Program-made: the position numbers and the translations under genes
Shown: piece by piece, positions 4,843 to 38,537 of the stretch
How positions within the stretch are numbered: the first letter of the stretch is position 1
Layout: every line of letters starts with the position of its first letter
Source: Ramlibacter sp. PS4R-6
Lineage (GTDB): Bacteria; Pseudomonadota; Gammaproteobacteria; Burkholderiales; Burkholderiaceae_C
Direction: 5' to 3'
Length of the DNA stretch: 64,000 nt
Assembly (NCBI RefSeq): GCF_037572775.1
Contig: NZ_JBBHKA010000001.1
Location: 1,488,001 to 1,552,000, forward strand
Notes under the pieces: generated by a model
Database searches by the model: none
What the model saw: only the letters and a program-made list of their open reading frames with translations
What the model was told of the DNA's origin: nothing

Positions 4843-4852
4843 CGTGGGTGAT

Positions 4853-4933: not shown

Positions 4934-4946
4934 CTTAGGAGGCTCG

Positions 4947-5489: not shown

Positions 5490-5498
5490 CTTGGACCG

Positions 5499-5588: not shown

Positions 5589-5636
5589 GGCATAAACGCA
5601 GATCTGTTCAGAATCGGAAACTGGGAGGAGGTCGCG

Positions 5637-18022: not shown

Positions 18023-18183
18023 GAGGGTCCCCCGAAAAGGAAACGAGTATGCGGCTGGGCATGATGACGTCGAGTCAGACAAAGCCGACTATTCCTCGCG
18101 AGGCCCGCCTACGGAATTTGGCGGTTCTGGCGGAGTCGGGACATCGTCCTACAGACAGCCGGGTCATCGTTGCGGATACATAA

Positions 18184-18198
18184 GTGTCCCCTGGACAC
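18184..18198. promoter_or_regulatory. Inverted repeat just before the MEDS gene
   Basis: GTGTCC-CCT-GGACAC is a perfect 6-base inverted repeat 6 bases before the ATG at 18205, in the divergent region between the FIST and MEDS genes. It could be an operator or an mRNA hairpin hiding the start. Role is inferred. Confidence 0.4.
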
Positions 18199-18204
18199 GC
18201 AGTC

Positions 18205-18861
18205 ATGCACAAACACCGAAAAATATCCCTCTGCGGCGAGTCGCTCGACGGGCTGCAGCACGTCTGCGCCTTCTTCGATTCCCGGGAAGAGCAGTACGAC
18301 GTGCTCAACCCTTACTTCCGCGAGGGCCTCGAGACAGGCGACGAGGTCGTGACCATCGTGGAATCCGCATACCACGACGAGCACATCCGGCGCATGTCCG
18401 GGGCGGGCATCCCCGTGGGTGCGGGAATGGAGTCGGGCCAGCTGAAGGTGCTTGCCTCCGAGGAGTCATACCTGAAAGACAATATCTTCGTGGTCGAGCG
18501 CATGTACGCGATGCTCGAGGAAGTGTTGCGCAACGCGGCCAGCGGGCCCTACAAATCCGTGCGCACGATGGGCGACATGGAATGGGCGCTCAAGAACCTG
18601 CCGGGCACCGACGAGCTCATAATGTACGAGGCGCGCGTGAACCTGCTCGCAGCGCACCACGACCGCACGTTGCTGTGCGCGTACGACGTGAACCGCTTCA
18701 GTGGGCGCGTCATCACCGACGTGCTGGCAACGCACTCCCATGTGATCATCAATGGGAAGGTGCACACGAACCCGTATTACGTCGACCCGGTGACCTACTT
18801 GAGCAAACTTGCGCTTCGCAAGCGCGCGGAGTCGCCGGCAAGGCCGTCCACCACGCATTGA
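18205..18861 (+). CDS. MEDS-domain (DcmR-like) sensory protein
   Basis: Encodes 218 residues that fit the MEDS family (methanogen/methylotroph DcmR sensory domain). Features are HVCAFFDSREEQYDVLNPYF at the start, GDEVVTIVESAYHDEHI, EVLRNAASGPYKSVRTMGDM and a final VHTNPYYVDPVTYL. MEDS domains are soluble and proposed to sense small organic compounds for linked regulators; here no output domain is attached, so it may act on the kinase encoded divergently. A GTG at 18184 could add seven codons, but it lies inside an inverted repeat, so the ATG was preferred. Confidence 0.8.
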   Translation: MHKHRKISLCGESLDGLQHVCAFFDSREEQYDVLNPYFREGLETGDEVVTIVESAYHDEHIRRMSGAGIPVGAGMESGQLKVLASEESYLKDNIFVVERMYAMLEEVLRNAASGPYKSVRTMGDMEWALKNLPGTDELIMYEARVNLLAAHHDRTLLCAYDVNRFSGRVITDVLATHSHVIINGKVHTNPYYVDPVTYLSKLALRKRAESPARPSTTH

Positions 18862-18892
18862 AGGCCAGTGACCCAGGGCCTCCGGCGCAACG

Positions 18893-19117
18893 CTACTGCT
18901 TTGGGGCCGCGCGGCGCATCTGATCCATCAACTCGGCAAGCCGTTCGCTTGCGAGGGCTCGAGCGTCTCGCACCAAGTCAAGGGTGTGCTTGTCAGGCGG
19001 AGAGCCCGCTCCTGAAAAGTAAGCCTCCCAGCTGCGACTGATTTCCTGCTCTGCTTCCCGAGCTAGATCGTCGAGCCGCTTCCACTCGTCGTGAAGTCGC
19101 CGTGCGCTTTCTGGCAT
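18893..19117 (-). CDS. Small hypothetical helical protein
   Basis: Encodes 74 hydrophilic residues (MPESARRLHDEWKRLDDLA...), almost entirely helical with alternating charges; it looks like a coiled coil or helical hairpin. Not recognised. It converges on the MEDS gene, 31 bases apart. Acceptance rests on its protein-like composition, a sensible start and no competing frame. Confidence 0.5.
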   Translation of the reverse strand: MPESARRLHDEWKRLDDLAREAEQEISRSWEAYFSGAGSPPDKHTLDLVRDARALASERLAELMDQMRRAAPKQ

Positions 19118-19156
19118 TCCGAAATGTTAACCAGATTCGCATGGCTGAGCAGCTAC

Positions 19157-19678
19157 CTATGCGCCGGTGCCTGGCACTTCGCTGAAGGCCTCCCTGAGCG
19201 CTTTCGACGCAGCAGTCGTTGCGGCAACGGAGTCCAACCACTGCTTCCACAGGTCAGGGTCGTACCCCGGGCATGCCTGGACCTTTGTCCTTGACCTGGA
19301 TCCAAAGATCCGCTTCTTTCTCGGTCGCGGCGTGGTATAGGTCGATGAAGTGTTGGCGAGTTCGCATTGGTCCCCGTGAAGTGCCAAATGGACTCTTGGC
19401 TGCGCATTCTACAAAGGCAGTCTGGACCAGCCATTTTGGAATGAGCCCGTGTTGAACGCCGTCTTGGAAGTTGGGGGCATGCCCCGAATGTTTGCAAAAA
19501 CACATTCGCTCGCGATGCTCGTCGCGACCCGCCCGCTGATGGCCGCGCCTCCAGACTCCTTCAGGACGAGCGGGACAGGTTGGTCTTTCGACCCGAACCG
19601 CCGGTGGGGCCAAATGGGACCTTCACGCGCGTGTGCATGTTCTTGCCGCCGCTTTGCGGCTTGTTCATGCTGTTCCAT
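19157..19678 (-). pseudogene. Decayed gene with one or two frameshifts
   Basis: Protein-like sequence jumps between frames on the minus strand. One frame gives SGGAAISGRVATSIASEC and PPTSKTAFNTGS, stopping at 19409. A second gives PKWLVQTAFVECAAKS and MRTRQHFIDLYHAATEKEAD before ending at 19254. A third continues with YDPDLWKQWLDSVAATTAA to 19157. The joint near 19270, KDKGP then PGYDPDLWKQW, looks like a single-base shift. No family was recognised. It may be a dead gene, and overlapping short genes are the alternative. Confidence 0.35.
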
Positions 19679-19770
19679 CCACGCGCCTTGCCTTCGGGGC
19701 GCTTGTGCTCCTCGGGATCGGACTGCCCTCGAGGGGCAGCCTCATCGGGGAGTCGTTTTCTTCTCGCCAT
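19561..19770 (-). CDS. Small hydrophilic protein (doubtful)
   Basis: A 69-residue frame, MARRKRLPDEAAPRGQSDPEEHK..., overlaps the end of the 54-residue basic protein gene and the decayed gene. It is strongly charged and low in hydrophobic residues, like small stress-associated proteins, but the start site is weak. An internal ATG at 19668 (MNKPQSGGKNMHTRV) is an alternative. It could also be non-coding. Confidence 0.25.
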   Translation of the reverse strand: MARRKRLPDEAAPRGQSDPEEHKRPEGKARGWNSMNKPQSGGKNMHTRVKVPFGPTGGSGRKTNLSRSS

Positions 19771-19906
19771 GCTTGAGGGGACCGGTCGGCGACGCACTGG
19801 AGCGGCCCGATTTCTTCGCCGCCTTGTCAGAGACGGCGCCGCTCGCGTGCTGCGTCTTTTTCGCGTGGGTCTTTCCACCCTGGCTGTCTTTGGTCGATTG
19901 CGGCAT
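19742..19906 (-). CDS. Small basic disordered protein, 54 residues
   Basis: Encodes MPQSTKDSQGGKTHAKK... with mostly K, S, G, T, A and no hydrophobic core; it ends GPLKHGEKKTTPR. A good ribosome-binding site (AAGGAA) lies 6 bases upstream of ATG 19906. The composition is like small stress-induced or plasmid-stabilisation-type basic proteins. No confident family. It lies between decayed genes and psiE, transcribed away from the latter. Confidence 0.45.
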   Translation of the reverse strand: MPQSTKDSQGGKTHAKKTQHASGAVSDKAAKKSGRSSASPTGPLKHGEKKTTPR

Positions 19907-20151
19907 GTGAGTTCCTTGGAAGTGAACCGGACCATTCCGGGCACCGTTCACGGTAGGGCACCGGATGTGACTTACCTGTGAGAAAAGAGGATCGGTGGCC
20001 GTAGGAGGTCGCTTTACACCAGACGCGTGTAGGAGACCTTGCGGCTGACAGCTGCTTCCGGCCAGAAGCGGAACGGCTCGCATCGCCGCTGCACGGCCGG
20101 GGGCTACCATGCACCTTGTCGGCCATCCGCGCCGGCCGAAGGAGAGTCATC

Positions 20152-24570: not shown

Positions 24571-27500
24571 TCAGGCGAGGATGAGGTCCGAAGCCACCAG
24601 CGTGGCCACCCCCGTCAGCTCCACGACGAACTCCGCGGCGCCGTCGGCATTGGTGCTGCCATAGAGCTTGTGCGTCGCGCTGTCGAAGCGCAGCTGCCCG
24701 GTCGCGTTCGCGCTGAATTCGGCGCTGCCGATGAACGTGAAGGACTGGAGGCCCTTCTTCGCGCTGTTCGCATCCATCTTGGCGAGGTCGATGTGGTCGC
24801 CCTCGGCCGGCCGGAAGTCCGTGATCACGTCGGTGTGCAGCCCGTCGCTGTCGGCCGCCGAGAGGTAGACGAAGCGGTCGCCGCCGGCGCCGCCGGTCAG
24901 CACGTCCGCGCCGGCTGCGCCATTGATCACGTTGGCCTGCGCATTGCCCGTGATCGCGTTGTCCAGCGCGTTGCCCGTGGCGCTCTTGGCCGTGCTCCCG
25001 GTGAGGGTCAGGTTCTCCACACCGGCGACCAGCACCATGTTCACCGACGACAGGATCGAGTCGATGCCTCCATTGGCGGCTTCGATGACCACGTCCTTCG
25101 AGATGTCGACGATGAAGGTGTCGTCGCCTGCGCCGCCGTCCATCGTGTCCGCGCCCGTGCCGCCGTCGAGCGTGTCCGCGCCCGCTCCGCCGGCCAGCGA
25201 GTCCGTGCCGGCCCCGCCTGCCAGCGAGTCGGCGCCGACGCCCCCCACGAGCGTGTCGGCGCCCGACGTGCCGCCCAGTGCCTGGCCGCCCGCCGTGATG
25301 AAGTTGAAGTCGCTCGAGCCCGCGTAAGCATTGCCGGCGGCGTCCTTGAACGTGCCCGCCGCGAACGTCAGCCGGTACTCGGTGCCAGCGGCCAGGTCGG
25401 CGGTGGGATCGATCGTCACTTCGCCGCCGGCGATCGACACGCGCGTGCTGGCCGCCGTGTCGAAGGTTTCCACCACCGTGCCGTCGGCCTTCTGCAGCAC
25501 GACATTGCCGCTTCCGCGCAGTACGTCTTCGCTGAAGGTCACGACCACGTTCGCGCCGATGGGGACGCCGACGGTTTCGTCGGAAGGGCTGAACGAGGTG
25601 ACAACCGGCGGCGTGCTGTCCGCGACGAGGACCGCCACGGGCGCCGTCGCGGCCGAAGCCACCTGCTCGTAGCTGCCGGCCTGGTCGAAGTAGCTCGCGA
25701 TCACCGTGATGGTCTTGCCCACCTCGCTCTCGCCCAGCAGGAGCGTCGCGCCGGTTGCGCCGGCGATGTCGGTGCTGTCGGCCTGCCACTGGTAGCCCAC
25801 GGTGCCCATGCCGTCGGCGTCGGCAAGCGAGTCGGAGGCGGTGAGCACCTCGCCCTGCCTTGGCGTGCCCGAGATCATCACTTCGCCGGTGGGCGCATCG
25901 TTGGCGGGGATGAGCCGCATCGTCGTGTCGCCGACGGCCTGCAACGCGCCGCCCGTTCCCTGCGCGCCCGTGTTGCCGTCGTCGAAGGTCCAGGCCACCT
26001 GCACCTGGCCGGACGGCGTGTCGGAATTGCTCGAATAGGTGATGCTCGAAAGCGCTTCGTTGACGCGAGACTGTGTCGCGTTGCCGTTGAAGGCGATCGC
26101 GAGCGAGCCGCCTGCGTTGGTGTAGGTGCCGATCGTGATGCCGCCCAGCACCGCGTCGCCCGCCGCCAGCGTCAGGTTGCCGCCGCCCGCGAAGGTGTCC
26201 TCGCCCGACGCGCCGCCCATGCGCTGCACCGTGATGCTGGAGCCCGCGTAGTTGCCCACGCCGCCGTCGAGCGCGGCGAGGTTCGCGTCGAAGACCGCGA
26301 CAGAGCTGTCGAGGAAGACCGGCGCCGCGTTCTCGATGAAAGTCGAGCCTGCGGAGAGCGTGTCGACCGGCGCGCCGTGGAAGCTCGTGTCGAGGCTGCC
26401 GTCGGCGTTGTACCGCGCCACGAGCACGTCGGCCTCGATGCCTTCCGTGGTGGAGGCGGCAACGACGATCTTGCCGTCCGCCTGCACCGACACGCTGCCG
26501 CCCATCTCGGTGTTGCCGTGCAAGTCGGTGAGGACGTAGCCGGTGCCGTTGAAGGTGGTGTCCACGCTGCCGTTCGCGTTGTAGCGCATGGTCACCACGT
26601 CGGAATGGGCCTCATCGGCATACCCGGTCACCACGAACTTGCCGTCGGCCTGCAGCGCGATGCCCTGGACCGATACGTTGGCGGTGGGCACGAGGTTTGT
26701 CAGGACCTTGCCTGTGCCGTTGAAGGCGGTGTCGAGGGTGCCGTCGGTGTTGTAGCGCGCGATGGCGAACGAACCGCCCGAACCGCCTGCGACGAGTATC
26801 TTGCCGTCGGACTGCATCGCGATGCCTGTGGCCGAGTCGGGTGTGCCGAACTGGCCCCCGGAGCCGAAGTCGGTGGTGGCAATCCCGTCGCCGCTGAAGC
26901 TCGTGTCGAGGGAGCCGTTCGAATTCAGGCGCATCACCTGGAAGTCGCTGTTGTCGTTGGAGCCCGCGACGACGATCTTCCCGTCGGCTTGCAACGCGAT
27001 GTCGCGGATCACGCTGAACCTGTTGCCCAGGCCGATGAGCTCGGAGCCGGTCCCGTTGAAAGTCGTGTCGAGGCTGCCGTTGCTGTTCAGGCGCGCAATC
27101 GCGAACGTCTGGTAGCCGTTGACCGGGTGCCAGTTGGCCATGCCCGCGACCAGGATCCTGCCGTCGGCCTGCACCGCGACAGCCTGGCCGCTCTCGCTGG
27201 CGGGGCCGACCTGGACGCTGGCAACGCCGGTTCCGTTGAACGACGTGTCCAGGCTGCCGTCCGTGTTGTAGCGGATGACGCCGAAGCCGCCCGAGTTTTG
27301 CGTGCCCCCGACCACCATCTTGCCGTCGGCCTGCAACACCATGTCGGCCGCCGCAAAACCGCTGACGCTGGTGGAGCTGCCCGTGCCGTTGAAAGTCGTG
27401 TCCAGGGTACCGTCGGCGTTCAGGCGCAGCACGGTGGCCGTCCTGTAGTCGATGTTGGCCGCGAGGAGAATCTTTCCATCCGGCAGCGTGATCGTTGTGC

Positions 27501-28728
27501 GCGCGTAGTCGTTTGTCCCATCGCCCAGGGCCATCACGGCCATGCCGGGTATGACCGCCGCGAACGTCGGTGCGACGTTGCCCGGGTCGACCGGAGCCGG
27601 CACACCGAAGCGCGTGCTGTAGATGTCCAGGCCGCTCGCCGGGTCGACGTAGCCTTCCCATGACACGGCGTAGCCGCCGCCTTCGAGAGCGGTGATGGCG
27701 GGGCGCGTCTGCCCGTCGGTGAAGTCGGCGGGGCTGATGCGCGTTTCGCCGCCGACGCGGCTGCCGTCCGCCGCGAACTGCTGCGCCTCGATGACCGGTG
27801 CGCCGTTCGCGAACGAATGCCATGCAACCACCCATCCGCCTTCATCGAGGCCGGTGATGGTCGGTGCCGTCTGCTCTTCGGCGATCACCGTGTTCACGAG
27901 CGTCTCGCCGCCGACGGGGCTGCCGTCGCCCGCGTAGCGCTGCGAGTAGATGCCGCCCAGGTCGCCTTCCTGCGAGTACGAGGTCCATGCGACCACATAG
28001 CCGCCGTCCGCCAGTGCGGCCACTTCCGGCGACATCTGGTTGTCGGCGATCGTCGTGTTCACACGCGTCTCGGCGCCGGCGAAAGTGCCGTCGGCGTTGA
28101 AGCGCTGCGCGGACACGCCCCATGTGAACCCCACGTCCGGCGAAATCCAGGTGACGACCCAGCCGCCGCCGGCGAGGCCGGCCACCATGGGATCGCCCTG
28201 GTTGCCCGCGGTGGTGGTATTGGCGCGCACTTCGCCGCCCACGCGCGAACCGTCGGCCGCATGGCGCTGCGTGTAGATGCCGTAGTCGTCGCCATCGCCC
28301 GAGACCCAGGCGGCCAGGTAGCCGCCGTCCGCCAGGCCGCCGGCGTCGGCAACGCTTTGCGTGCCCACTGTCTGCGTGTTGACCAGGGTCTCGCCGCCGA
28401 TCGGCGTGCCGTCGGCCGCGAATCTCTGGCTGAGCACCCCCTCCGAGCTGCCGTCCGCCTCGTTCGAAGTCCAGACGACGACGAAGCCGCCGGCTTGCGC
28501 CGTGATGGCGGGCATCATCTGCATGTTGGCCGTCGTGGTGTTCACGCGGGTCTCGGCCCCGGCGGCGTTGCCGTCGGCGCCGTAGCGTTGGAAGTAGATG
28601 TCGCCGAAGTCGCTTCCGGGCTGGAAGGAGTGCCAGGCGACGACATAGCCGCCATCGGGCAGGGCGGCGATGTCGGACCAGCTCTGTTCGTCGGCGGTCG
28701 ACGTGTTGACGCGGGAAACGGTGCTCAT
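24571..28728 (-). CDS. Giant RTX/delta-60 repeat protein, probable type I secretion substrate
   Basis: Encodes about 1385 residues from ATG 28728; a start 49 codons earlier is possible and neither has a clear ribosome-binding site. Residues 1-375 hold about eight repeats of about 45 residues around GGYVVAWxS and VNTxxAxxQ. Then come delta-60 repeats (SLDTTFNGTG...ADGKIVVAG), an Ig-like domain (PVVTSFSPSDETVGVPIGAN), and calcium-binding RTX nonapeptides such as GGAGADTLDGGTGADTMDGG. The C terminus (GQLRFDSATHKLYGSTN, then VATLVASDLILA) resembles the M10 serralysin-type secretion signal. No N-terminal signal peptide, as expected for type I export. Likely cell-surface or released adhesin. Confidence 0.8.
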   Translation of the reverse strand: MSTVSRVNTSTADEQSWSDIAALPDGGYVVAWHSFQPGSDFGDIYFQRYGADGNAAGAETRVNTTTANMQMMPAITAQAGGFVVVWTSNEADGSSEGVLSQRFAADGTPIGGETLVNTQTVGTQSVADAGGLADGGYLAAWVSGDGDDYGIYTQRHAADGSRVGGEVRANTTTAGNQGDPMVAGLAGGGWVVTWISPDVGFTWGVSAQRFNADGTFAGAETRVNTTIADNQMSPEVAALADGGYVVAWTSYSQEGDLGGIYSQRYAGDGSPVGGETLVNTVIAEEQTAPTITGLDEGGWVVAWHSFANGAPVIEAQQFAADGSRVGGETRISPADFTDGQTRPAITALEGGGYAVSWEGYVDPASGLDIYSTRFGVPAPVDPGNVAPTFAAVIPGMAVMALGDGTNDYARTTITLPDGKILLAANIDYRTATVLRLNADGTLDTTFNGTGSSTSVSGFAAADMVLQADGKMVVGGTQNSGGFGVIRYNTDGSLDTSFNGTGVASVQVGPASESGQAVAVQADGRILVAGMANWHPVNGYQTFAIARLNSNGSLDTTFNGTGSELIGLGNRFSVIRDIALQADGKIVVAGSNDNSDFQVMRLNSNGSLDTSFSGDGIATTDFGSGGQFGTPDSATGIAMQSDGKILVAGGSGGSFAIARYNTDGTLDTAFNGTGKVLTNLVPTANVSVQGIALQADGKFVVTGYADEAHSDVVTMRYNANGSVDTTFNGTGYVLTDLHGNTEMGGSVSVQADGKIVVAASTTEGIEADVLVARYNADGSLDTSFHGAPVDTLSAGSTFIENAAPVFLDSSVAVFDANLAALDGGVGNYAGSSITVQRMGGASGEDTFAGGGNLTLAAGDAVLGGITIGTYTNAGGSLAIAFNGNATQSRVNEALSSITYSSNSDTPSGQVQVAWTFDDGNTGAQGTGGALQAVGDTTMRLIPANDAPTGEVMISGTPRQGEVLTASDSLADADGMGTVGYQWQADSTDIAGATGATLLLGESEVGKTITVIASYFDQAGSYEQVASAATAPVAVLVADSTPPVVTSFSPSDETVGVPIGANVVVTFSEDVLRGSGNVVLQKADGTVVETFDTAASTRVSIAGGEVTIDPTADLAAGTEYRLTFAAGTFKDAAGNAYAGSSDFNFITAGGQALGGTSGADTLVGGVGADSLAGGAGTDSLAGGAGADTLDGGTGADTMDGGAGDDTFIVDISKDVVIEAANGGIDSILSSVNMVLVAGVENLTLTGSTAKSATGNALDNAITGNAQANVINGAAGADVLTGGAGGDRFVYLSAADSDGLHTDVITDFRPAEGDHIDLAKMDANSAKKGLQSFTFIGSAEFSANATGQLRFDSATHKLYGSTNADGAAEFVVELTGVATLVASDLILA

Positions 28729-28933
28729 GGGGGGATCCAGGGAAGGGGATCGGGCAGCGGGGGAGCCGCCGCGCGCGCTGGCGGGGGAGATGCGGCTGCG
28801 CGCGGAACTGCGTCGCAGGGACTGGAACTGTATGGATGGCGCGGCGCAGGAACTCCTGTCGCGATTCGCCTGCATCCAACGATGCAGCGACCTTGTGACT
28901 TAGAGCCCTAGCGCCGAGTTCGGAGACCGCCCG

Positions 28934-29881
28934 CTAGCGCGCGGAAACAGCCACGCCCCAGGGCGACTCGCCGACTCCAATGTCCATCACGCGCACGAGC
29001 GCCACGGTGTCGATGATCGTGACGCTGTTGGAGCGCCCATTCGCCACATAGAGCCGGGCGCCGTCGGGCGAGAGGGCCATGTTCCATGGCCGCTGCCCGA
29101 CGCCCACCGTTGCGACGACTTCGCCGCGCGCGAGGTCGACCACCGAAACGCTGGCGCCGCGCCCATTGGAGACGTAGGCGCGCGAGCCGTCGGGGCTGAT
29201 CGCCACACCGTTGGCGAACTGCCCGGCAGCGATCGTGCGCTCTACCTTGCGCGTCGCCATGTCGATGACGTGCACCGTGCTGTCGAGTTCGCAAGCGACG
29301 ACGGCGCGGCGGCCGTCCGGCGTGAAGGCGATGCCGCGGGGGCGCCGGCCCACGGCGATGCTCGCGACCTGCCGGCGCTCGCCCACGTCGATGACGTCGA
29401 CCTGCGCCGCGTCCTCCGCTCCCGCCAGCAGCCAGCGTCCGTCGGGCGAGAAGGCCGTGTGCTCGGGGTTCTTGCCCTCCACGCGGATGCGGGCGGCGAC
29501 GCGGCCGTTCGCGACATCGACGAGCACGACGGCATTTTCTTCTTCGATCGCCGCGGCCAGCCATTGGCCGTCGCGCGACACGGAGATGCCTTCCGGAGAC
29601 GCGCCGAGAGCGATCCGCCCGCGCTCCCGGCGAAGCGCCGTATCGATGAGCAGGAGCGAACCCGACTCCTGTTCGCTGATGAAGAGCGTGGCGCCGTCCG
29701 CGCCGACCGCCACGCCCCTCGGGCGCCCGCCGGTGCGGATTTCGCCGGTGACTTGCTGCGTTTGCGTGTCGACGATGCTCACGCTACCCGACTTCTCGTT
29801 GGGCACGTAGGCGAAGGGCGCGGCCAGCACGCTCGCGGAATGCAGCGCGAGGAGGGCGACATAGAGGCGAAGGCTTTTCAT
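28934..29881 (-). CDS. YVTN beta-propeller protein associated with PQQ-dependent catabolism
   Basis: Encodes 315 residues with a signal peptide (MKSLRLYVALLALHSASVLA). The mature protein is about seven repeats of roughly 42 residues of the YVTN type (FAYVPNEKSGSVSIVDT, AYVSNGRGASVSVVDLA, LYVANGRSNSVTIIDT), forming a periplasmic beta-propeller. Such proteins are regularly found beside PQQ alcohol dehydrogenases, as here; their exact role is unclear. ATG overlaps the stop of the cytochrome b561 gene, giving a two-gene minus-strand unit divergent from the PQQ dehydrogenase operon. Longer frames upstream are antisense noise. Confidence 0.85.
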   Translation of the reverse strand: MKSLRLYVALLALHSASVLAAPFAYVPNEKSGSVSIVDTQTQQVTGEIRTGGRPRGVAVGADGATLFISEQESGSLLLIDTALRRERGRIALGASPEGISVSRDGQWLAAAIEEENAVVLVDVANGRVAARIRVEGKNPEHTAFSPDGRWLLAGAEDAAQVDVIDVGERRQVASIAVGRRPRGIAFTPDGRRAVVACELDSTVHVIDMATRKVERTIAAGQFANGVAISPDGSRAYVSNGRGASVSVVDLARGEVVATVGVGQRPWNMALSPDGARLYVANGRSNSVTIIDTVALVRVMDIGVGESPWGVAVSAR

Positions 29882-30447
29882 CGCAGGGAAGGAATCCCCA
29901 TTCGCGCGGCCACGCCGTCGTGCTGCAGCCAGTGCCATGCCGAGGCCGCCACGTGCAGTGCGACGAGCACCACGAACGCATACGCGGCCGCAAGGTGGAA
30001 GTCCGCCATCAGCTGCTTGGCCGCGGGCCAGTCGGCATGCGGCAGCGGCAACGCGGCCCCGAAGAAACGGATGGGATAGCGGGTGAAGCTGGAGCCGAGG
30101 AACCCGCTCACCGGCATGAGGAGCATGCAGGCATACAGAGCCCCGTGCGTCGCCTGTGCTGCCGCCAGTTGCCATGCGGGCAGGGCGTGCGCCGCTGGCG
30201 CGGGGTGCGACGCGCGCCACGCGAGCCGCAGGGCGACGAGGACCGCCAGGACGATGCCGATGGACTTGTGGACGTTGAACCACCCGGCGCGCAGTCCGGG
30301 TGGCGACTTGGGAAGGTCCACCATCCACCAGCCGAGCACGAGTTGCGCGATGAGCAGCACGGCGAGCAGCCAGTGCAGCGCGACCGTAGCGCGCGAGTAG
30401 GGCGCTACGGCCGGTGAAACGTGAGGTCGATCGCCCGAAAGAGTCAT
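29878..30447 (-). CDS. Cytochrome b561 family protein
   Basis: Encodes 189 residues with four membrane helices and the expected haem-ligand histidines: ALHWLLAVLL (helix 1), NVHKSIGIVL (helix 2), THGALYACMLL (helix 3) and DFHLAAAYAF with LHVAAS (helix 4). The family transfers electrons between quinone and periplasmic partners. The PYSRATVALHWL start matches the prokaryotic b561 group. It is translated first in a two-gene unit with the YVTN propeller, divergent from the PQQ dehydrogenase, suggesting a linked redox role. Confidence 0.88.
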   Translation of the reverse strand: MTLSGDRPHVSPAVAPYSRATVALHWLLAVLLIAQLVLGWWMVDLPKSPPGLRAGWFNVHKSIGIVLAVLVALRLAWRASHPAPAAHALPAWQLAAAQATHGALYACMLLMPVSGFLGSSFTRYPIRFFGAALPLPHADWPAAKQLMADFHLAAAYAFVVLVALHVAASAWHWLQHDGVAARMGIPSLR

Positions 30448-30627
30448 GCGGCTTGCATCGATTGCGATTGGATGATGCCCCAAACACGTGCGCGCTGTGT
30501 AAACTCGATCGCACCGGAACAAGGCGCCTGCACTGTCGAGCTGAGCGCCTTTTTCTGGCGTGGATGCATCGTGCCGCGATGTATTCCGGTACCGGGCTTT
30601 GTCAGTTGCTCGCTGTTGGGAGAATCG

Positions 30628-32400
30628 ATGAGGCTTGCCCTTTTCGCCGCCGTTTTGCTTGCGTCCGTTGCTGTCGCGCAGGTGCCCGCGGCCGCGCCGG
30701 ACGACGGCGCGTGGGTCATGCCGGGCCGTAACCACGCCGGCACACGGTTTTCGCCGCTGGCCCAGGTCACCGCGGCCAACGCCGGGCAGCTCAAGCTTGC
30801 CTTCAGCATGCCGACGGGCATCCACAAGGGCCACGAGGCCGCGACGATCGTCGCCGAGGACACGATGTTCATCGTGACGCCGTATCCCAACGCGGTGATC
30901 GCGCTCGACCTCACGAAACCCGGCGCCAGCGTGAAGTGGCGGTTCGAAGCCAAGCCCGACCCGGGGTCCCAGGGCGTCGCGTGCTGCGACGTGGTGAATC
31001 GCGGGGCCGCCTACGACAAGGGCCGCGTCTTCTTCAACACGCTCGACAACCAGGCCATCGCGCTCGATGCGAAGACCGGGCGCGAGCTGTGGCGCGCGAA
31101 GCTCGGCGAGATCAAGAAGGGCGAGAGCATGACCATGGCTCCGCTCGTGGTGAAGGACAAGGTGCTGGTGGGCAACAGCGGCGGCGAATTCGGCGTGCGC
31201 GGATGGCTCAAGGCGCTCGATGCGGCCACCGGCAAGGTCGCATGGACGGCTTACAGCACCGGCCCCGACAAGGATGTGCTCATCGGGCCGAACTTCAAGC
31301 CGTTCTATCCGCAGGACCAGGGCACCGACCTGGGCGTGAAGACATGGCCCGCCGACGCGTGGAAGATTGGCGGCGGCACCGTGTGGGCGTGGATCACCTA
31401 TGACGCCGCGCTCGACCTCGTCTTCTACGGCACGGCGAACCCGGGGCCATGGAACCCCGCGCAGCGCCCGGGCGACAACAAGTGGACGTCGGCGCTCATC
31501 GCGCGGCGGCCGGCCACCGGCGAGGCGATCTGGGCCTACCAGAAGAGCCCGCACGACCTGCACGACTTCGACGGCGTGAACGAAGCCGTCGTCGTGGAAC
31601 TGGATTGGCAGGGCCGCAACCGCAAGGTGCTGCTGCATCCCGACCGCAACGGCTACATGTATGTGATGGACCCGGCGACGGGCCAGGTGCTCGCGGCGCA
31701 ACCCTTCGTGCACATCACGACGTCCACCGCTGTGGACCTGCGAACGGGCAAGCTGAACTACAACCCCGACAAGGACCCGCGCCCCGGCGAGGTCACGCGC
31801 GACATCTGCCCCGCATCGCCCGGCGCCAAGGATTGGCAGCCCACCGCCTGGTCGCCGCGCACGAAGCTCCTCTATATCCCGCACCAGAACCTGTGCCAGG
31901 ACGCGGTGCCCGGCCAGGCGAGCTACATCGCCGGCACGCCCTACGTGGGCATGGACATCAAGATGTACCCGGGGCCGGGCGGGCACCGCGGGCTCTTCAC
32001 GGCATGGGACCCGGTGGCCGGCAAGGCCGCGTGGCAGGTGCGCGAACATTTCCCGGTGTGGAGCGGCGCGCTCGCCACGGCCGGCGACGTCGTGTTCTAC
32101 GGGACGATGGACGGCTGGTTCAAGGCGCTCGATGCGAAGACCGGCCAGAAGCTCTGGGAATACAAGACCGAGTCGGGAATCATCGGCCAGCCCGTGAGCT
32201 ACCGCGGCCCCGACGGCAAGCAGTACATCGCCGTGCTCGCGGGCGTCGGGGGCTGGGCGGGCGCGATCGTCTCGGGCGACATGGACCCGCGCGACGGCAC
32301 GGGCGCCTCGGGCTTCGCGTACGCGATGCGAGACCTGCGCGAAGCGACGAAGAAGGGTGGGCGGCTGTACGTCTTCTCGCTGGAAGGGCCCGCGAAGTGA
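30628..32400 (+). CDS. PQQ-dependent alcohol dehydrogenase (methanol/ethanol type)
   Basis: Encodes 590 residues: signal peptide (1-17), then an eight-bladed quinoprotein propeller. It oxidises a primary alcohol in the periplasm using PQQ and passes electrons to a cytochrome c. Visible are the adjacent cysteines Cys119-Cys120 (VACCDVVNRG) that form the ring disulfide over PQQ, the catalytic-Asp region ITYDAALDLVFYGTANPGP, and W-motifs such as GKVAWTAY. Two residues after the catalytic Asp is Ala, whereas lanthanide (XoxF-type) enzymes have Asp, so Ca2+ is more likely. The ATG at 30628 follows GGGAG; its stop overlaps the next start. Confidence 0.88.
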   Translation: MRLALFAAVLLASVAVAQVPAAAPDDGAWVMPGRNHAGTRFSPLAQVTAANAGQLKLAFSMPTGIHKGHEAATIVAEDTMFIVTPYPNAVIALDLTKPGASVKWRFEAKPDPGSQGVACCDVVNRGAAYDKGRVFFNTLDNQAIALDAKTGRELWRAKLGEIKKGESMTMAPLVVKDKVLVGNSGGEFGVRGWLKALDAATGKVAWTAYSTGPDKDVLIGPNFKPFYPQDQGTDLGVKTWPADAWKIGGGTVWAWITYDAALDLVFYGTANPGPWNPAQRPGDNKWTSALIARRPATGEAIWAYQKSPHDLHDFDGVNEAVVVELDWQGRNRKVLLHPDRNGYMYVMDPATGQVLAAQPFVHITTSTAVDLRTGKLNYNPDKDPRPGEVTRDICPASPGAKDWQPTAWSPRTKLLYIPHQNLCQDAVPGQASYIAGTPYVGMDIKMYPGPGGHRGLFTAWDPVAGKAAWQVREHFPVWSGALATAGDVVFYGTMDGWFKALDAKTGQKLWEYKTESGIIGQPVSYRGPDGKQYIAVLAGVGGWAGAIVSGDMDPRDGTGASGFAYAMRDLREATKKGGRLYVFSLEGPAK

Positions 32401-33170
32401 AAGCGGCGTGCGTGATGGCGTTCGCCTTGAACTTCGCCGGCGCGGCATTCGCGCAGGCCGCGCCCGACGCGCTGCGCGTGTGCGCCGACCCCGACAACCT
32501 GCCGTACTCGCGCGCCGACGGCAGCGGCTTCGAGAACCGCATCGCGCAAACGCTGGCCGACGACCTGAAGCTGCCGCTGCAGTACGAATGGCTGCCCGAC
32601 CGCCGCGGCTTCGTGCGCAAGACGCTGGGCGAGCAGAAGTGCGACCTGATCGTCGGCGTTCCCGCGCAGTTCGAGCGCACGGCCAACACGCGGCCCTATT
32701 ACCGCTCCACCTACGTGTTCGTCGAGCGCGCGACGGCGGCACCGCCCGTCCACTCGCTGGACGACCCTCGCCTGCCGAAGCTGCGCATCGGCGTGCAGCT
32801 GATCGGCAACGACCTCGCGGCCTCGCCGCCGGGCGAGCTGCTCGCCCGCCACGGCCACACGCAGAACGTGCGGGGTTTCACGCTGGCAGGCGAGACGCCT
32901 TCGGCCGAACGCGCCGTCGACGCCATCGTGCGCGGCGACATCGACGCCGCCGTTCTGTGGGGGCCGCAAGCCGCGTACTTCGCGCGCCGCGCCGCGGCGC
33001 CGCTGCGCGTGACGAAGCTGCAGGTCCCCGCCGATGCGCATTTCGAATTCGCCATCGCCATGGGCGTGCGCCGCGGCGACAAGGAGTTGCGTGAGCGCCT
33101 GGACGACTTCATTCGCCGCCGGCAGGCCGACATCGACGTCATCCTGGCCGAGTACGAGGTGCCGCAATGA
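32397..33170 (+). CDS. MoxJ/XoxJ-like periplasmic binding protein
   Basis: Encodes 257 residues from GTG, with a signal peptide ending in AGAAFAQA. It is a family 3 solute-binding fold: LRVCADPDNLPYSRADGSGFENRI at the N terminus, then LPDRRGFVRKTLGEQKCDLIVG. Members called quinoprotein-dehydrogenase-associated binding proteins (MoxJ/XoxJ) are thought to help mature or activate PQQ dehydrogenases rather than import solutes, and no ABC transporter is nearby, which fits. It overlaps the dehydrogenase stop (GTGA) and the cytochrome c start. Confidence 0.85.
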   Translation: MKAACVMAFALNFAGAAFAQAAPDALRVCADPDNLPYSRADGSGFENRIAQTLADDLKLPLQYEWLPDRRGFVRKTLGEQKCDLIVGVPAQFERTANTRPYYRSTYVFVERATAAPPVHSLDDPRLPKLRIGVQLIGNDLAASPPGELLARHGHTQNVRGFTLAGETPSAERAVDAIVRGDIDAAVLWGPQAAYFARRAAAPLRVTKLQVPADAHFEFAIAMGVRRGDKELRERLDDFIRRRQADIDVILAEYEVPQ

Positions 33171-33736
33171 CGAAGTGGGCCATTGCAATCGCCATCGCGC
33201 TGCTGGCCTCCGGGTGCGAGCGCGAGGCGCGGCGCTTCGACGTGCCGGCGAAGAACCAGACGCCTGCGGAGACGGCGCCTCGGATGTCGAGCAACCAACC
33301 CGCGATCGCGCAGCAGGGCAACGTCCGCGCGCCGCTGCGAAGCGAGAGCCCGTACGACGAGAACGCATACGCCGTGAACCAGGGCAAGCGCCTCTACCGC
33401 TGGTACAACTGCAACGGCTGCCATTCCATGGGGGGCGGCGGCATCGGCCCCGCGCTGATGGACAGCCAGTGGAAATACGGCGGCGACCCCGCGAGCATCT
33501 TCGATTCGATCATGCGCGGGCGCCCCGAGGGCATGCCCTCCTTCGGCGGCCACATCCCCGAAGACCAGGTGTGGCAGATCGTCGCCTACGTGCGCTCGAT
33601 GGGCGGGCAGTTGCGCAAGGACGTGGCGCCCAGCCGGGCCGACACGCTGTACCCCGGCAATCCCGAAAACGCGCGCCCGAAGGAGGCCCAGGTGCCCCAG
33701 AAGGCCGAGACCCCCGTTCCCGGAGCCCGTCCATGA
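33167..33736 (+). CDS. Lipoprotein cytochrome c
   Basis: Encodes 189 residues. A lipobox LLASGC gives a lipid-anchored periplasmic protein with Cys near residue 17. One haem site, CNGCH in YRWYNCNGCHSMGGGG, and a distal Met in PEGMPSFGG fit a class I cytochrome c. The C-terminal 35 residues are Pro/Lys rich. It sits between the PQQ dehydrogenase genes and the oxidase genes and overlaps both neighbours, so it is the natural electron carrier from dehydrogenase to oxidase. Confidence 0.88.
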   Translation: MTKWAIAIAIALLASGCEREARRFDVPAKNQTPAETAPRMSSNQPAIAQQGNVRAPLRSESPYDENAYAVNQGKRLYRWYNCNGCHSMGGGGIGPALMDSQWKYGGDPASIFDSIMRGRPEGMPSFGGHIPEDQVWQIVAYVRSMGGQLRKDVAPSRADTLYPGNPENARPKEAQVPQKAETPVPGARP

Positions 33737-34803
33737 CGCCGGCGATCCATTTATTCATGCGTCTCCTGCTCGGTGCGGCGGTCACGGTCGTGATGCTCTC
33801 GCTCGCCGACTATGCGATGGCTGCGACCCCGGTGGATACGGTGCACGACGCCTTGCACGCCTTCGGGCCGCAGGCCGCGCACTTCGGCAAGCTCTGGAAC
33901 ATCTTCCTGTTCACCTGCACGGCCGTCTTCGCGGCGATCCTGATCGCACTCGTCATCGCGTTGCGCCGCGCGCCGCCGGCCGACGAATCGTCGGCAGCCG
34001 ACCTGTCCAACGTGAACCGGCAGGAGCCCGCGCTGAAGCGCCATGTCACGCGCGCGGTCGTCGCTTCGGCGCTGGCCCTCGTCGCCCTCATCGTCGCGAG
34101 CGTCTTCACCGACCGCGCGATGGCGCGTCTGTCGCTGGTGAACGCGGTCAACGTCGAGATCACCGGGCACCAGTGGTGGTGGACAGTGCGCTACATCGAC
34201 GGGCCCAACGCCAGCGACATCTTCACCACCGCCAACGAGATGCACATCCCGGTCGGGCGGCCCGTGATCATCCAGCTTTCGGCCGACGACGTGATCCACA
34301 GCCTGTGGGTGCCGAACCTCGCCGGCAAGAAGGACCTGATCCCCGGCCGCAGCGCAACGTTGCAGCTGCGTGCGGACCATCCGGGCATTTATCGCGGGCA
34401 GTGCGCGGAGTTCTGCGGGCTCGAACATGCGCTGATGGGCTTGCTGGTCATCGCGGAACCCCAGGACCAGTACGACCGGTGGGTCGCGGGGCAGAAACAG
34501 CCGGCGCCGGAGCCGCAGGATGCCCAGGCGCAGCGCGGCAAGCAGGTCTTCCAGTCCTCCAGCTGCGCGATGTGCCACGCCATCGCAGGGGCCGACTTTG
34601 CCGGCGCGCAGCGCGGGCCCGACCTTACGCACGTCGCCAGCCGCCAGACGCTCGCGGCCGGCACGCTGAAGAACACGCGCGAAGAGATGGCCGCGTGGAT
34701 CCGCGATCCGCAGACGCACAAGCCGGGCACGGCGATGCCGGCGACGCCGCTGTCGCAGGAGGACCTGGACGCCGTCGTCGCCTACCTGGGGGGATTGAAA
34801 TGA
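33733..34803 (+). CDS. ctaC: Cytochrome c oxidase subunit II with fused cytochrome c (caa3 type)
   Basis: Encodes 356 residues. A signal or first helix (9-30) and two membrane helices (53-77, 105-127) precede the cupredoxin domain. The CuA ligands are His189, Cys224, Cys228, His232 and Met235 (QCAEFCGLEHALM), and EITGHQWWWTVRY is the conserved aromatic strand. Residues 263-356 add a cytochrome c with SSCAMCHAI (Cys278, Cys281, His282) and an axial Met near the end (GTAMPATPL). The fused haem c defines the caa3 class, which accepts electrons from cytochrome c. Overlaps at both ends show tight coupling. Confidence 0.92.
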   Translation: MTPAIHLFMRLLLGAAVTVVMLSLADYAMAATPVDTVHDALHAFGPQAAHFGKLWNIFLFTCTAVFAAILIALVIALRRAPPADESSAADLSNVNRQEPALKRHVTRAVVASALALVALIVASVFTDRAMARLSLVNAVNVEITGHQWWWTVRYIDGPNASDIFTTANEMHIPVGRPVIIQLSADDVIHSLWVPNLAGKKDLIPGRSATLQLRADHPGIYRGQCAEFCGLEHALMGLLVIAEPQDQYDRWVAGQKQPAPEPQDAQAQRGKQVFQSSSCAMCHAIAGADFAGAQRGPDLTHVASRQTLAAGTLKNTREEMAAWIRDPQTHKPGTAMPATPLSQEDLDAVVAYLGGLK

Positions 34804-36719
34804 GCGTGAAGGACGGGGCCCTGCACGACACGCAAGTGGCCGCGCTGCTCGACCGCACCTGGGACGACCCCCGGGGATTCTTGGGCTGGTTCTGCGTGGT
34901 CAACCACAAGACGATCGCCAAGCGGTTCATCGTGGCGTGCCTGGTGTTCTTCGCGCTCGCGGGGTTGCTGGCCGCCGTGATGCGCCTGCAGCTGGCCAGG
35001 CCCGACAACAACGTCGTCGGCCCGGACATGTACAACCAGCTGTTCACCATGCACGGCTCGGCGATGATGTTCCTCTTCGCCGTGCCGGTGATGCAGGCGG
35101 TCGCGGTGTTCCTGGTGCCGCTGATGGTCGGCGCGCGGCAGGTGGCGTTCCCGCGGATGAACGCGTTCGCGTTCTGGATCTTCCTGTTCGGCGGCTTCAC
35201 GCTGTTCATCGCGTTCTTCCTGAACACCGGGCCCGACGCAGGCTGGTTCGCCTACGTGCCCCTGTCGGGCCCCGACTATTCGCCGGGCAAGCGCGTGGAC
35301 ATCTGGGCGCAGATGATCACCTTCACCGAGCTGTCGGCGCTGCTGGAGGCGATCACCCTCATCACGACCATCCTCAAGTTCCGCGCACCGGGCATGACGA
35401 TGAACCGCATCCCGCTGTTCTGCTGGGCGACGCTCATCACGTCGTTCATGGTGCTCTTCGCGATGCCGGCCGTGATGCTGGGAAGCTCGGCGCTGATCAT
35501 GGACCGCCTGATCGGCACGCACTTCTACAACCCCGCGGAAGGCGGCGACGTCGTCCTGTGGCAGCACCTCTTCTGGTTCTTCGGGCACCCGGAGGTCTAC
35601 CTGATCTTCATCCCGGGCCTGGGCTTCCTCTCCGCGATGATCCCCACCTTCTCGCGCCGGCCGCAATTCGGCTACGCGGCGATGGTCCTTTCGCTCATCG
35701 CGACGGGCTTCCTGTCGTTCGGGCTGTGGGTGCACCACATGTTCGCGACGAACCTGCCCGAACTCGGCAAGAGCTTCTTCACGGCCGCGAGCATGCTGAT
35801 CGCCATCCCTTCGGCAATCCAGATCTACTGCTGGATCGCCACGATGTGGACGGGGAAGCTGAACCTGCGCACGCCGATGCTCTATTGCCTGGCGTTCTTC
35901 TTCATCCTCGTCCTGGGCGGCATGACGGGGCTGATGCTGGCCTCGGTGCCGCTGGACTATCAGGTGCACGACACGTACTTCGTCGTCGCGCACCTGCACT
36001 ACGTGCTGATCGGCGGCGCCGTGTTCCCGCTGTTCGGCGCGTTCTATTACTGGTTCCCCAAGTTCCTCGGCCGCATGATGTCCGAGAGGCTCGGCCGGTG
36101 GTCGTTCTGGCTGATGTTCATCGGCTTCAACGTGGCGTTCTTCCCGATGCACATCCTGGGCCTGCAAGGCATGCCGCGGCGCGTGTGGACGTACCAGGCG
36201 GGCATGGGCTGGGACGGCATGAACCTGCTGTCGACTGTCGGCGCGTTCACCTTCGCCTTGGGCATCTTCCTGAGCCTGGTCAATGCCGTGCGCAGCGCCA
36301 GGGCGGGCGCGGCCGCGCCCGCGAACCCGTGGGGCGCGGGCACGCTCGAATGGGCCACGCAATCGCCGCCGGCGCCGTGCAACTTCCATGCGATTCCCGT
36401 CGCGCACGGCCGCGATCCCCTGTGGCAGGGCGCCCCTGAAGGCGAGCCGTCGCACGTGGCCGGCCTGGCCGCGGACAAAAGGGAGGCGCTGGTCACCACC
36501 GTCATCGACGCGCTGCCCGACCACCGCTACCTGTCGCCGCCGCCGTCGCCGCTTCCCTTCCTTTCGGCCGTGGCCACGACCGTGCTCTTCATCGGCTCCA
36601 TCTTCACGCCGTGGGCTATCGTGTGGGGCTCCGTCATCGTCGCGGTCCCGGTGATCGCGTGGTTCTGGCCGAAACGCCACGACGTCGACAGCGAACTCGC
36701 CCTGGAGAAGAGGCCATGA
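34800..36719 (+). CDS. ctaD: Cytochrome c oxidase subunit I (haem-copper, extended)
   Basis: Encodes 639 residues, about 100 longer than common aa3 subunit I. Catalytic ligands are visible: MHGSAMMF (haem a His), FGHPEVYLI (CuB His, the proton-path Glu and the cross-linked Tyr), WVHHMFAT (CuB His pair) and VAHLHYVLIGG (haem a3 and a His). This is an A1-type haem-copper oxidase that reduces O2 to water and pumps protons. The C-terminal 70 residues add two more helices (LPFLSAVATTVLFIGS, AIVWGSVIVAVPVIA), as in the 14-helix subunit I of Bacillus caa3, with a correspondingly short subunit III following. Confidence 0.94.
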   Translation: MSVKDGALHDTQVAALLDRTWDDPRGFLGWFCVVNHKTIAKRFIVACLVFFALAGLLAAVMRLQLARPDNNVVGPDMYNQLFTMHGSAMMFLFAVPVMQAVAVFLVPLMVGARQVAFPRMNAFAFWIFLFGGFTLFIAFFLNTGPDAGWFAYVPLSGPDYSPGKRVDIWAQMITFTELSALLEAITLITTILKFRAPGMTMNRIPLFCWATLITSFMVLFAMPAVMLGSSALIMDRLIGTHFYNPAEGGDVVLWQHLFWFFGHPEVYLIFIPGLGFLSAMIPTFSRRPQFGYAAMVLSLIATGFLSFGLWVHHMFATNLPELGKSFFTAASMLIAIPSAIQIYCWIATMWTGKLNLRTPMLYCLAFFFILVLGGMTGLMLASVPLDYQVHDTYFVVAHLHYVLIGGAVFPLFGAFYYWFPKFLGRMMSERLGRWSFWLMFIGFNVAFFPMHILGLQGMPRRVWTYQAGMGWDGMNLLSTVGAFTFALGIFLSLVNAVRSARAGAAAPANPWGAGTLEWATQSPPAPCNFHAIPVAHGRDPLWQGAPEGEPSHVAGLAADKREALVTTVIDALPDHRYLSPPPSPLPFLSAVATTVLFIGSIFTPWAIVWGSVIVAVPVIAWFWPKRHDVDSELALEKRP

Positions 36720-37330
36720 ACCAGGCGCACGTACGGGATGGCGCGCTGGACGTCGCCGGGCTTCCGAGCCACCGCTTTTCGCACCACAGCCCGATGTGGT
36801 GGGGCACGTTCGGGATGATGGCGATCGAGGGCACGGTCTTCGCGCTGACGGTGATGTGCTACTTCTACCTGCGCAGCCACTCGAAGATCTGGCCGATGTC
36901 GGTGCTGCCGCCCGACCTGTTGTGGGGCACGGTGGCGCTGGTGCTGATGCTGCTCAGCGCGATCCCGAACCACCTGGCCAAGAGAGCCGGCGAACGCTAC
37001 GACCGTCATGGCGTGCGGCTGTGGATGGGCGTCATGGTGGTGCTGGGTGCCGCGCTGCTCGTCGTGCGGGGCTTCGAGTTCGCGGCGCTGAACGTCCGCT
37101 GGGACACCAACGCCTATGGTTCCGTGGTGTGGCTGCTGCTTGGCCTGCACACGGTGCACCTGGCGACGGACTGGGTCGACACGGCGGTACTGGAGGCACT
37201 CTTCTTCACCGACAGGATCACGGGACGGCGCTACGTCGACATCAGCGAGAACGCGATGTACTGGTACTTCGTCGTCTTCTCGTGGCTGCCGATCTACCTC
37301 GTGCTCTATTGGGGAGGGCGCCAGCCATGA
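36716..37330 (+). CDS. ctaE: Cytochrome c oxidase subunit III, five-helix form
   Basis: Encodes 204 residues with five membrane helices, lacking the first two helices of the seven-helix form; those are probably supplied by the C-terminal extension of subunit I. The stretches WGTFGMMAIEGTVFALTVMCYFYLR (split over helix 1) and WLLLGLHTVHLATDWVDT carry the conserved Glu and His of subunit III. It stabilises the proton-pumping oxidase core. ATG overlaps the ctaD stop, and its own stop overlaps the next small gene. Confidence 0.88.
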   Translation: MNQAHVRDGALDVAGLPSHRFSHHSPMWWGTFGMMAIEGTVFALTVMCYFYLRSHSKIWPMSVLPPDLLWGTVALVLMLLSAIPNHLAKRAGERYDRHGVRLWMGVMVVLGAALLVVRGFEFAALNVRWDTNAYGSVVWLLLGLHTVHLATDWVDTAVLEALFFTDRITGRRYVDISENAMYWYFVVFSWLPIYLVLYWGGRQP

Positions 37331-37659
37331 GGATCTGGCTCGCGCTGCTGGCGGCGCCGTCTCTCGCACTGGCCGCGCAAGCGATCATGTTCGCGCTGGT
37401 GACGCCGTCGTGCTCCACCCAGACGCGCGTGGCCATCCACGCCGTCGCGGCCGTCGCGCTCGTGCTGTGCCTGGGCTTCATCGGGTTGGCGCGGTCGGCG
37501 GGCGCGCCCGTGCGTTTCGGCGCCGACCACGACGACGGTGAAGCGTCCACCACGCGGCACTTCCTCGCCATCGTCGCCACCGCCGTCGGCGCCATCTCGG
37601 CGCTGGTGGTGCTCGGCATGTGGATCGGTGCATGGGTCCTGTCGCCCTGCTTCTCCTGA
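37327..37659 (+). CDS. Small membrane protein, possible caa3 subunit IV
   Basis: Encodes 110 residues with three hydrophobic segments (about 5-27, 36-55, 80-105). Not recognised by motif, but its place between subunit III and CtaG, its length and its overlap on both sides match the small accessory subunit (CtaF-like) of caa3 oxidases. Two Cys (SCSTQ and SPCFS) are present. A structural or assembly role in the oxidase is inferred from position alone. Its 3' end overlaps the start of ctaG by 28 bases. Confidence 0.65.
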   Translation: MRIWLALLAAPSLALAAQAIMFALVTPSCSTQTRVAIHAVAAVALVLCLGFIGLARSAGAPVRFGADHDDGEASTTRHFLAIVATAVGAISALVVLGMWIGAWVLSPCFS

Positions 37660-38537
37660 CGGCGGCCGCACCGGCCCTCGCGCACGCGCCCGATGCGCGC
37701 GGCGCGCACGACGCGCTGCTGCACTGGACCTTCGAACCCTGGGTGGTCGTTCCGTTGCTCATCGCGGCGGCCTTGTACGCGCGCGGTATCCGGCACCTGT
37801 GGCGCAACGCGGGCAGGGGGCGCGGCATCACGTTGGCGCAGGTGGCGTGTTTCGCGGCCGGGTGGCTGTCGCTGGTCGCGGCGCTCGTTTCGCCGCTCGA
37901 TACGTTAGGCGGCCGGCTCTTTTCGGCGCACATGGTCCAGCATGAGGTGTTGATGCTCGTCTCGGCCCCCCTGATAGTGCTGGCACGGCCGCTGGCCGCG
38001 TGGACGTGGGCGTTCTCGCTGCACAACCGCCAACGCATCGGCGACGGTCTGCGGCCGCGGTGGTGGCGCGCGACCTGGTCATTCCTCACCGAGCCGGTTG
38101 CCGCCACGGCGCTGCACGCGCTGGCCCTGTGGCTGTGGCACGTGCCCGCGTCGTTCGAGGCCGCGCTGCACAGCGAAGCCGTACATGCGCTGCAGCACAC
38201 CAGCTTCCTGGGCACGGCGCTGTTCTTCTGGTGGGCGGTGCTGGGGCGCGATTCGCGCGTGTCGCGCGGCGGCGGCATGGCGCTGGCGTGCCTGTTCGCG
38301 ACGATGATGCACACGAGCGCACTGGGCGCGCTGCTCACGTTGGCCCCCACGCCGTGGTATCCGGCTTACGCGGCCAGCGCTCCCTTGTTCGGCATGGACC
38401 CCGTCGAAGACCAGCAGCTCGGCGGCCTCGTGATGTGGGTGCCCGGGGCGGCAGCGTATCTGTGGGCCACGCTGGCCATCGCTTCGCGCTTCCTCGGGTT
38501 CCGTGGAGCCACGCAGCCGCGGGCAGCGCGGCCCTGA
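37632..38537 (+). CDS. ctaG: Cytochrome c oxidase assembly factor, CtaG (caa3) type
   Basis: Encodes 301 residues with a signal-like first helix and six or seven further membrane helices. Conserved His-containing segments are SAHMVQHEVLMLVSAPLIVL and ALALWLWHVPASFEAAL, with MMHTSALGALLT near the end, which match the caa3_CtaG family (distinct from Cox11). These membrane proteins help insert copper or mature caa3 oxidases. ATG 37632 was chosen; a GTG four codons earlier is possible. It completes the seven-gene overlapping operon that begins with the PQQ dehydrogenase. Confidence 0.85.
   Translation: MGPVALLLLTAAAPALAHAPDARGAHDALLHWTFEPWVVVPLLIAAALYARGIRHLWRNAGRGRGITLAQVACFAAGWLSLVAALVSPLDTLGGRLFSAHMVQHEVLMLVSAPLIVLARPLAAWTWAFSLHNRQRIGDGLRPRWWRATWSFLTEPVAATALHALALWLWHVPASFEAALHSEAVHALQHTSFLGTALFFWWAVLGRDSRVSRGGGMALACLFATMMHTSALGALLTLAPTPWYPAYAASAPLFGMDPVEDQQLGGLVMWVPGAAAYLWATLAIASRFLGFRGATQPRAARP

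Follow-up and report, generated by a model that had tools for sequence, protein, structure and literature searches.

We have analysed a stretch of 64,000 nucleotides from the soil bacterium Ramlibacter sp. PS4R-6 (assembly GCF_037572775.1, contig NZ_JBBHKA010000001.1, positions 1,488,001 to 1,552,000), here called the window. Positions 30628-38537 of its plus strand carry eight overlapping genes for a quinoprotein dehydrogenase, its partner proteins and a cytochrome oxidase. The best explanation, to which we give a probability of about 85%, is that these genes are a xoxF3-cox operon, probably of COX type a-II, running a chain from methanol or another small alcohol to oxygen with scavenged pyrroloquinoline quinone (PQQ). 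The eight genes, with lengths in amino acids (aa), are:

30628..32400, plus strand: xoxF3, lanthanide-type PQQ methanol dehydrogenase, 590 aa, with a signal peptide (TIGR03075, 629 bits, above the curated cut-off)
32397..33170, plus strand: xoxJ, partner resembling periplasmic binding proteins, 257 aa, starting with GTG in a GTGA overlap (TIGR03871, 289 bits, above cut-off)
33167..33736, plus strand: lipoprotein cytochrome c in the xoxG position, 189 aa (PF13442/PF00034; lipobox LASGC, CNGCH)
33733..34803, plus strand: ctaC, oxidase subunit II of caa3 type, with the CuA motif CAEFCGLEHALM and a fused C-terminal cytochrome c (CAMCH) (PF00116 and PF00034, above Pfam cut-offs)
34800..36719, plus strand: ctaD, oxidase subunit I of 639 aa, extended at its C-terminus (TIGR02891, 698 bits, above cut-off; alignments)
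36716..37330, plus strand: ctaE, a short subunit III of 204 aa (PF00510, 23.6 bits, just below the cut-off of 23.8; NF050119, 51.6 bits, below cut-off)
37327..37659, plus strand: small membrane protein of 110 aa with three predicted helices (no family match)
37632..38537, plus strand: ctaG, caa3 assembly factor of Caa3_CtaG type, 301 aa (PF09678, 199 bits, above Pfam cut-off)

All eight frames are open, lie in line and overlap end to end, as the initial annotation had described. The junctions are, in order, a GTGA of 4 bases, five ATGA overlaps of 4 bases each and an overlap of 28 bases, and no plus-strand terminator-like site was found inside the cluster. Thirteen further Ramlibacter loci contain the identical eight genes in identical order with intact frames, and the operon occurs in about a quarter of the 59 Ramlibacter genomes sampled; the isolate R. 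paludis XY19 is among its carriers. Because this order recurs in the 13 loci and in many phyla, the arrangement is not due to chance. A single operon is supported by these sequence features, and we infer that the genes are co-transcribed. One additional locus (L110, genome G581) has the same order with many broken frames, which are probably sequencing errors; the completeness of this genome is scored at 63%.

The product of the first gene had been annotated initially as a PQQ alcohol dehydrogenase. The PQQ type is correct, but the generic alcohol label is not, since the nearest solved proteins are XoxF enzymes. The closest of these is the XoxF2 methanol dehydrogenase 4mae, with 50% identity, followed by XoxF1 and XoxF5 (44-45%), while PQQ ethanol dehydrogenases reach 35-38%. 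The protein has the lanthanide-site residues E187, N271, D313 and D315, which correspond to E172, N256, D299 and D301 of 4mae, and it keeps the PQQ arginines and the vicinal cysteines (CC disulfide C119-C120). In our tree its clade (101 sequences, support 0.974) leaves out the XoxF1, XoxF2 and XoxF5 structures and includes soil Acidobacteria, Rokubacteria and Methylocaldum; this tree contains no labelled XoxF3 or XoxF4 reference and its deep nodes are weakly supported. Judged by its residues and relatives, the enzyme is better called a XoxF3-type lanthanide methanol dehydrogenase than a generic PQQ alcohol dehydrogenase.

Two other assignments were ruled out. A generic PQQ ethanol or alcohol dehydrogenase was rejected as XoxF proteins are the closest solved relatives, and a cofactor-free 'empty quinoprotein' (TIGR04528) was rejected because the score of 315 bits lies below the cut-off of 650 and because the PQQ and metal ligands are retained. 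Some XoxF3 homologues located in cox clusters have these metal ligands replaced: L121 (the same as L192, from a Rhizobacter metagenome-assembled genome) and L122 carry A/R/G and D/S/R, respectively, for E172/N256/D299, and no XoxJ was detected. Here the dehydrogenase has possibly lost metal catalysis while the oxidase was retained.

The oxidase has the characters of a caa3 enzyme of the A family: heme and CuB histidines, the cross-linked tyrosine, the CuA site and a cytochrome c fused to subunit II. The cytochrome encoded upstream of it is a lipoprotein, and a crude motif test found the lipobox in 62 of 96 loci, so that a lipid anchor is common, though not necessarily universal. In 69 of the loci examined, a counterpart of the small membrane protein is encoded between ctaE and ctaG. 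Its residues C29, F79 and C108 are invariant, both cysteines being so across 17 aligned sequences, and it is modelled as a three-helix bundle (predicted local distance difference test, pLDDT, 90.7) with the cysteines at helix ends predicted to lie on the same side. It has no Pfam family, the best Foldseek match has an E value of 0.32, and VIA-align matches are three-helix bundles only. Subunit III of cytochrome oxidase was considered as a relative, but the Foldseek matches are weak (E >1) and were not trusted. Should the N-terminus lie inside, the two cysteines of the model would be periplasmic, which would suit copper handling or assembly.

Linkage of this oxidase to XoxF3 extends far beyond Ramlibacter. 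Among named genomes, a scan recovered 80 loci of XoxF3 type, which belong to Acidobacteriota, Gemmatimonadota, Verrucomicrobiota, Rokubacteria and the alpha-, beta- and gamma-proteobacteria. Where the flanks were long enough, ctaD lies within 10 kilobases (kb) of XoxF3 in 62 of 65 loci and, in 48 of those 62, downstream on the same strand (median distance 2.4 kb). By comparison, none of nine tested XoxF/alcohol-dehydrogenase loci of lower identity (38-47%) has ctaD nearby. Some loci were fetched twice, via two collections, so that totals spanning the two are slightly too high. The synteny survey, which the initial annotation had proposed for other betaproteobacteria, gives the same order across Ramlibacter and linkage in several phyla. 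Three loci with ample flanks (L196 and L202 from Hyphomicrobium and L212 from Methylobacterium sp. 2A) contain xoxF-xoxJ-xoxG and no cox genes; they are natural controls for the idea of a private oxidase.

The source of PQQ can be considered from the genome as a whole, the completeness of which is estimated at 100%. A profile search gave no match to PqqC in this genome and, for PqqE, only a background radical-SAM match (50 bits, where the cut-off is 381). In four other operon-carrying Ramlibacter (G557, G585, G586 and G544) identical searches identified both proteins above cut-off, and both are missing in six of nine tested Ramlibacter operon carriers of 99-100% completeness. PqqC is above cut-off in 28 of the 50 genomes examined that contain named XoxF3 loci; isolates of Mesorhizobium, Sphingomonas, Lysobacter and Microvirga are among the negative ones. 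The PS4R-6 genome does encode a homologue of the PQQ importer PqqU (C1:2877408-2879426), which is 51% identical to that of E. coli. It has all five PQQ-contacting residues (F99, K274, R304, R365 and R536), and thus the importer signature of Tyr/Phe/Trp99, Arg304 and Arg365, with F99 an accepted variant. Since PqqC and PqqE are absent and a PqqU with the binding signature is present, PQQ is probably taken from outside, scavenging via PqqU being a documented strategy (Munder et al. 2025, PMC12124388). This split between PQQ makers and PQQ users links the trait to the surrounding community.

The chain that we envisage would operate as follows. XoxF3, with PQQ and a lanthanide, would oxidise methanol or another small alcohol in the periplasm, XoxJ assisting in loading or activation of the dehydrogenase. 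Electrons would pass to the membrane-tethered lipoprotein cytochrome c, to the cytochrome c fused to CtaC and then through CuA and heme a to heme a3/CuB, where oxygen would be reduced. CtaG, and perhaps also the two-cysteine small protein, would assist in assembly of the copper centres. PqqU would import external PQQ into a cell unable to make it, and formaldehyde would be handled by a glutathione-dependent formaldehyde dehydrogenase, which is encoded in the genome. As Fae is absent from the genome and this glutathione route is present, the operon may provide energy rather than carbon. A dedicated methanol-to-oxygen chain is plausible and well supported by genomics. The initial annotation had predicted such a chain with its own terminal oxidase, and the linkage of dehydrogenase, XoxJ, cytochrome and caa3 oxidase, kept over very long evolutionary distances, matches that prediction; what is not supported is the suggestion that the chain is unusual.

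Several points weigh against this interpretation. The XoxF3 name rests on clade position, on the described XoxF3 gene content and on the organisms, the sequences being unlabelled. The cytochrome fails to reach the MoxG/cL cut-off (TIGR03872, 40.5 against 147.8 bits) and may be called XoxG by position only. Electrons could also reach other oxidases, the lack of Fae makes methanol doubtful as a carbon source for growth, and the case is built on genomics. The genome encodes two further heme-copper oxidases, one of aa3 type and one more divergent and probably of cbb3 type, so the operon oxidase is not the only one of the cell. The eight genes might then be simply a co-expression unit in which linkage ensures matched expression, electrons from the dehydrogenase entering a shared pool of cytochrome c and leaving via any of the three oxidases. 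This would agree with the presence in one of the two further oxidases of all canonical proton-path residues, and with the three well-flanked XoxF3 loci (L196, L202 and L212) that have no cox genes nearby. We nevertheless consider it unlikely, because 62 of the 65 informative loci retain the linkage to this specific oxidase, in several phyla and even where gene order differs, and because the cytochrome and the oxidase are both membrane-bound c-type relays.

The substrate could also be another alcohol or an aldehyde (for example, ethanol or formaldehyde), with the operon serving detoxification or energy rather than growth on methanol. Ramlibacter is not known as a methylotroph. The genome lacks the Fae gene and has the glutathione formaldehyde route only, and XoxF3 enzymes were experimentally unstudied when the Acidobacteria systems were described (PMC10875860). 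Against this, the fold, the ligands and the best relatives are those of methanol dehydrogenases, and the PQQ ethanol dehydrogenases are far more distant; a different substrate is possible but on the doubtful side. That the operon is a functionless relic in a strain that cannot make PQQ would agree with the failure of both PqqC and PqqE to reach cut-off in a genome estimated to be complete. We consider this very improbable: the frames are all intact, the ligands are fully conserved, a PqqU with the binding signature is encoded, other near-complete Ramlibacter also have the operon without pqq genes, and scavenging is known elsewhere.

The oxidase in this chain has a distinctive set of proton-path residues. 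We compared 73 XoxF3-linked CtaD rows of at least 53% identity with solved aa3 oxidases and with the aa3 oxidase of the same genome. All 73 have glutamine in place of the K-pathway lysine (Q341 in the window), and 69 have N, S, A, T or Q in place of the D-pathway entry aspartate (Q114 in the window). Of the canonical D/K pathway residues (D124/K354/E278, Paracoccus numbering), which correspond to Q114, Q341 and E265, only the gating glutamate E265 is retained. A buried glutamate in helix IV, E177, is invariant in the XoxF3-linked proteins and is glycine in the canonical enzymes. Every XoxF3-linked CtaD retains the ligands of heme and CuB as well as the cross-linking tyrosine, and the subunit II entry glutamate appears to be lost in the copies viewed. 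No conserved replacement lysine near the K pathway was found in the CtaD alignment, in which E177 is the sole standout. The pattern extends over the sampled phyla. In a more distant oxidase group the aspartate is retained, the lysine is A, T or Q, and the gating glutamate is W in 9 of 15 rows.

A second type of XoxF3-linked oxidase, with 45-47% identity, occurs at nine loci (L111, L124, L131, L158, L194, L197, L200, L203 and L207) and has tryptophan for the gating glutamate and no K-pathway lysine. Five Ramlibacter sister CtaD proteins (L112-L116, 49-51%) have glutamine at the K-pathway site together with E177, and no XoxF lies within the stretch fetched. Since these sisters already have both residues, Q341 and E177 may predate the linkage to XoxF.

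Proton uptake in the XoxF3-linked oxidase may be unusual, to judge from these substitutions, although their effect on proton pumping cannot be read from sequence. Loss of the K pathway has been reported for some A-family (archaeal) oxidases (PMC8239418). The main text of the type a-II study (PMC4013037) does not discuss proton-path residues, and an earlier report of these changes, in other work on type a-II oxidases, is possible. As a tentative proposal, with the odds against it, the XoxF3-linked oxidase would be a distinct branch of the A family that has abandoned both textbook proton pathways and uses another route, possibly via E177, so that fewer or no protons are pumped in methanol respiration; the Ramlibacter chain would in addition depend on the PQQ of neighbours. 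If the substitutions do mean weak or no pumping, the energy yields assumed for methanol oxidation in soil would need revision.

The cluster is flanked upstream by two genes on the opposite strand, both expected from the initial annotation, which had noted divergent b561 and YVTN partners:

30448..30627, given on the plus strand: intergenic region of 180 bases between the diverging start codons, a likely promoter region for both directions
29878..30447, minus strand: cytochrome b561, 189 aa, divergent (PF01292, 93 bits)
28934..29881, minus strand: YncE-like beta-propeller, divergent (TIGR03866, 220 bits, under the cut-off of 287; YVTN repeats)

The b561 and YncE-like genes are joined by an ATGA overlap. 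A YncE-like partner is common in XoxF3 loci and b561 is present in only a few. A promoter scan found no sigma-70 consensus in the 180-base region. Unrelated genes lie on either side: downstream, those for an IclR regulator, a DctP binding protein and AroQ, and upstream that for an RTX/DUF5122 protein of 1434 aa (24571-28875, minus strand), which combines DUF5122 propeller repeats, an Ig-like domain and RTX calcium-binding repeats. Elsewhere in the window the G+C content falls to 0.56 at 4001-6000 and 0.61 at 18001-20000, in surroundings of about 0.68, and these may be recent insertions.

Few lanthanide dehydrogenases are as common in soil as XoxF3. Isolates of Ramlibacter have been sequenced, and with so compact an operon the idea of a private methanol-to-oxygen chain can be tested by deleting genes. 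The initial annotation implied that the arrangement was unusual. It is already known from many bacteria, of which Ramlibacter is another example. The XoxF3 gene set of Acidobacteria, including cox and ctaG, has been described by Voutsinos et al. (2024, PMC10875860), and, as cited there, the mini-review of Keltjens (2014) had already noted cox and ctaG in xoxF3 operons. All components of that cluster are present in the window: xoxF, xoxJ, xoxG, coxI-III, ctaG and a protein of approximately 110 aa between coxIII and ctaG. Degli Esposti et al. (2014, PMC4013037) defined COX operon type a-II, which they recognised in 40 alpha-proteobacteria and a number of beta-proteobacteria. Its COX1 has 630-670 aa and a C-terminal extension resembling COX4, its COX3 has five helices, and a PQQ methanol dehydrogenase is often included. 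The comparison with the window covered COX1 length (639 aa) and the presence of a PQQ dehydrogenase in the operon, and the window matches in both.

Compared with the XoxF3 systems known from Acidobacteria, Gemmatimonadetes and Verrucomicrobia in soil, that of the window belongs to a beta-proteobacterium and has end-to-end overlaps and a divergent b561, and no NRAMP or TonB receptor gene was seen adjoining the Ramlibacter cluster. It resembles COX type a-II in the PQQ methanol dehydrogenase within the COX operon, the COX1 of 639 aa, the short COX3 and the co-occurrence of an ordinary aa3 oxidase; PMC4013037, however, deals mainly with alpha-proteobacteria and names the dehydrogenase only as MxaF-related. 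The PqqU scavengers (PMC12124388) share the signature residues and a quinoprotein without biosynthesis genes, and in this organism uptake is predicted. With the XoxF2 system of 4mae and its XoxJ and XoxG, the window shares the enzyme fold, the lanthanide ligands and a XoxJ-like partner; the dehydrogenases are 50% identical, and the described core of that system has no oxidase. With caa3 oxidases of the A family it shares the cytochrome c fused to CtaC, the CtaD ligands and CtaG, and it differs from them in the glutamine at the K-pathway lysine, the loss of the D-pathway entry aspartate and the extra buried glutamate.

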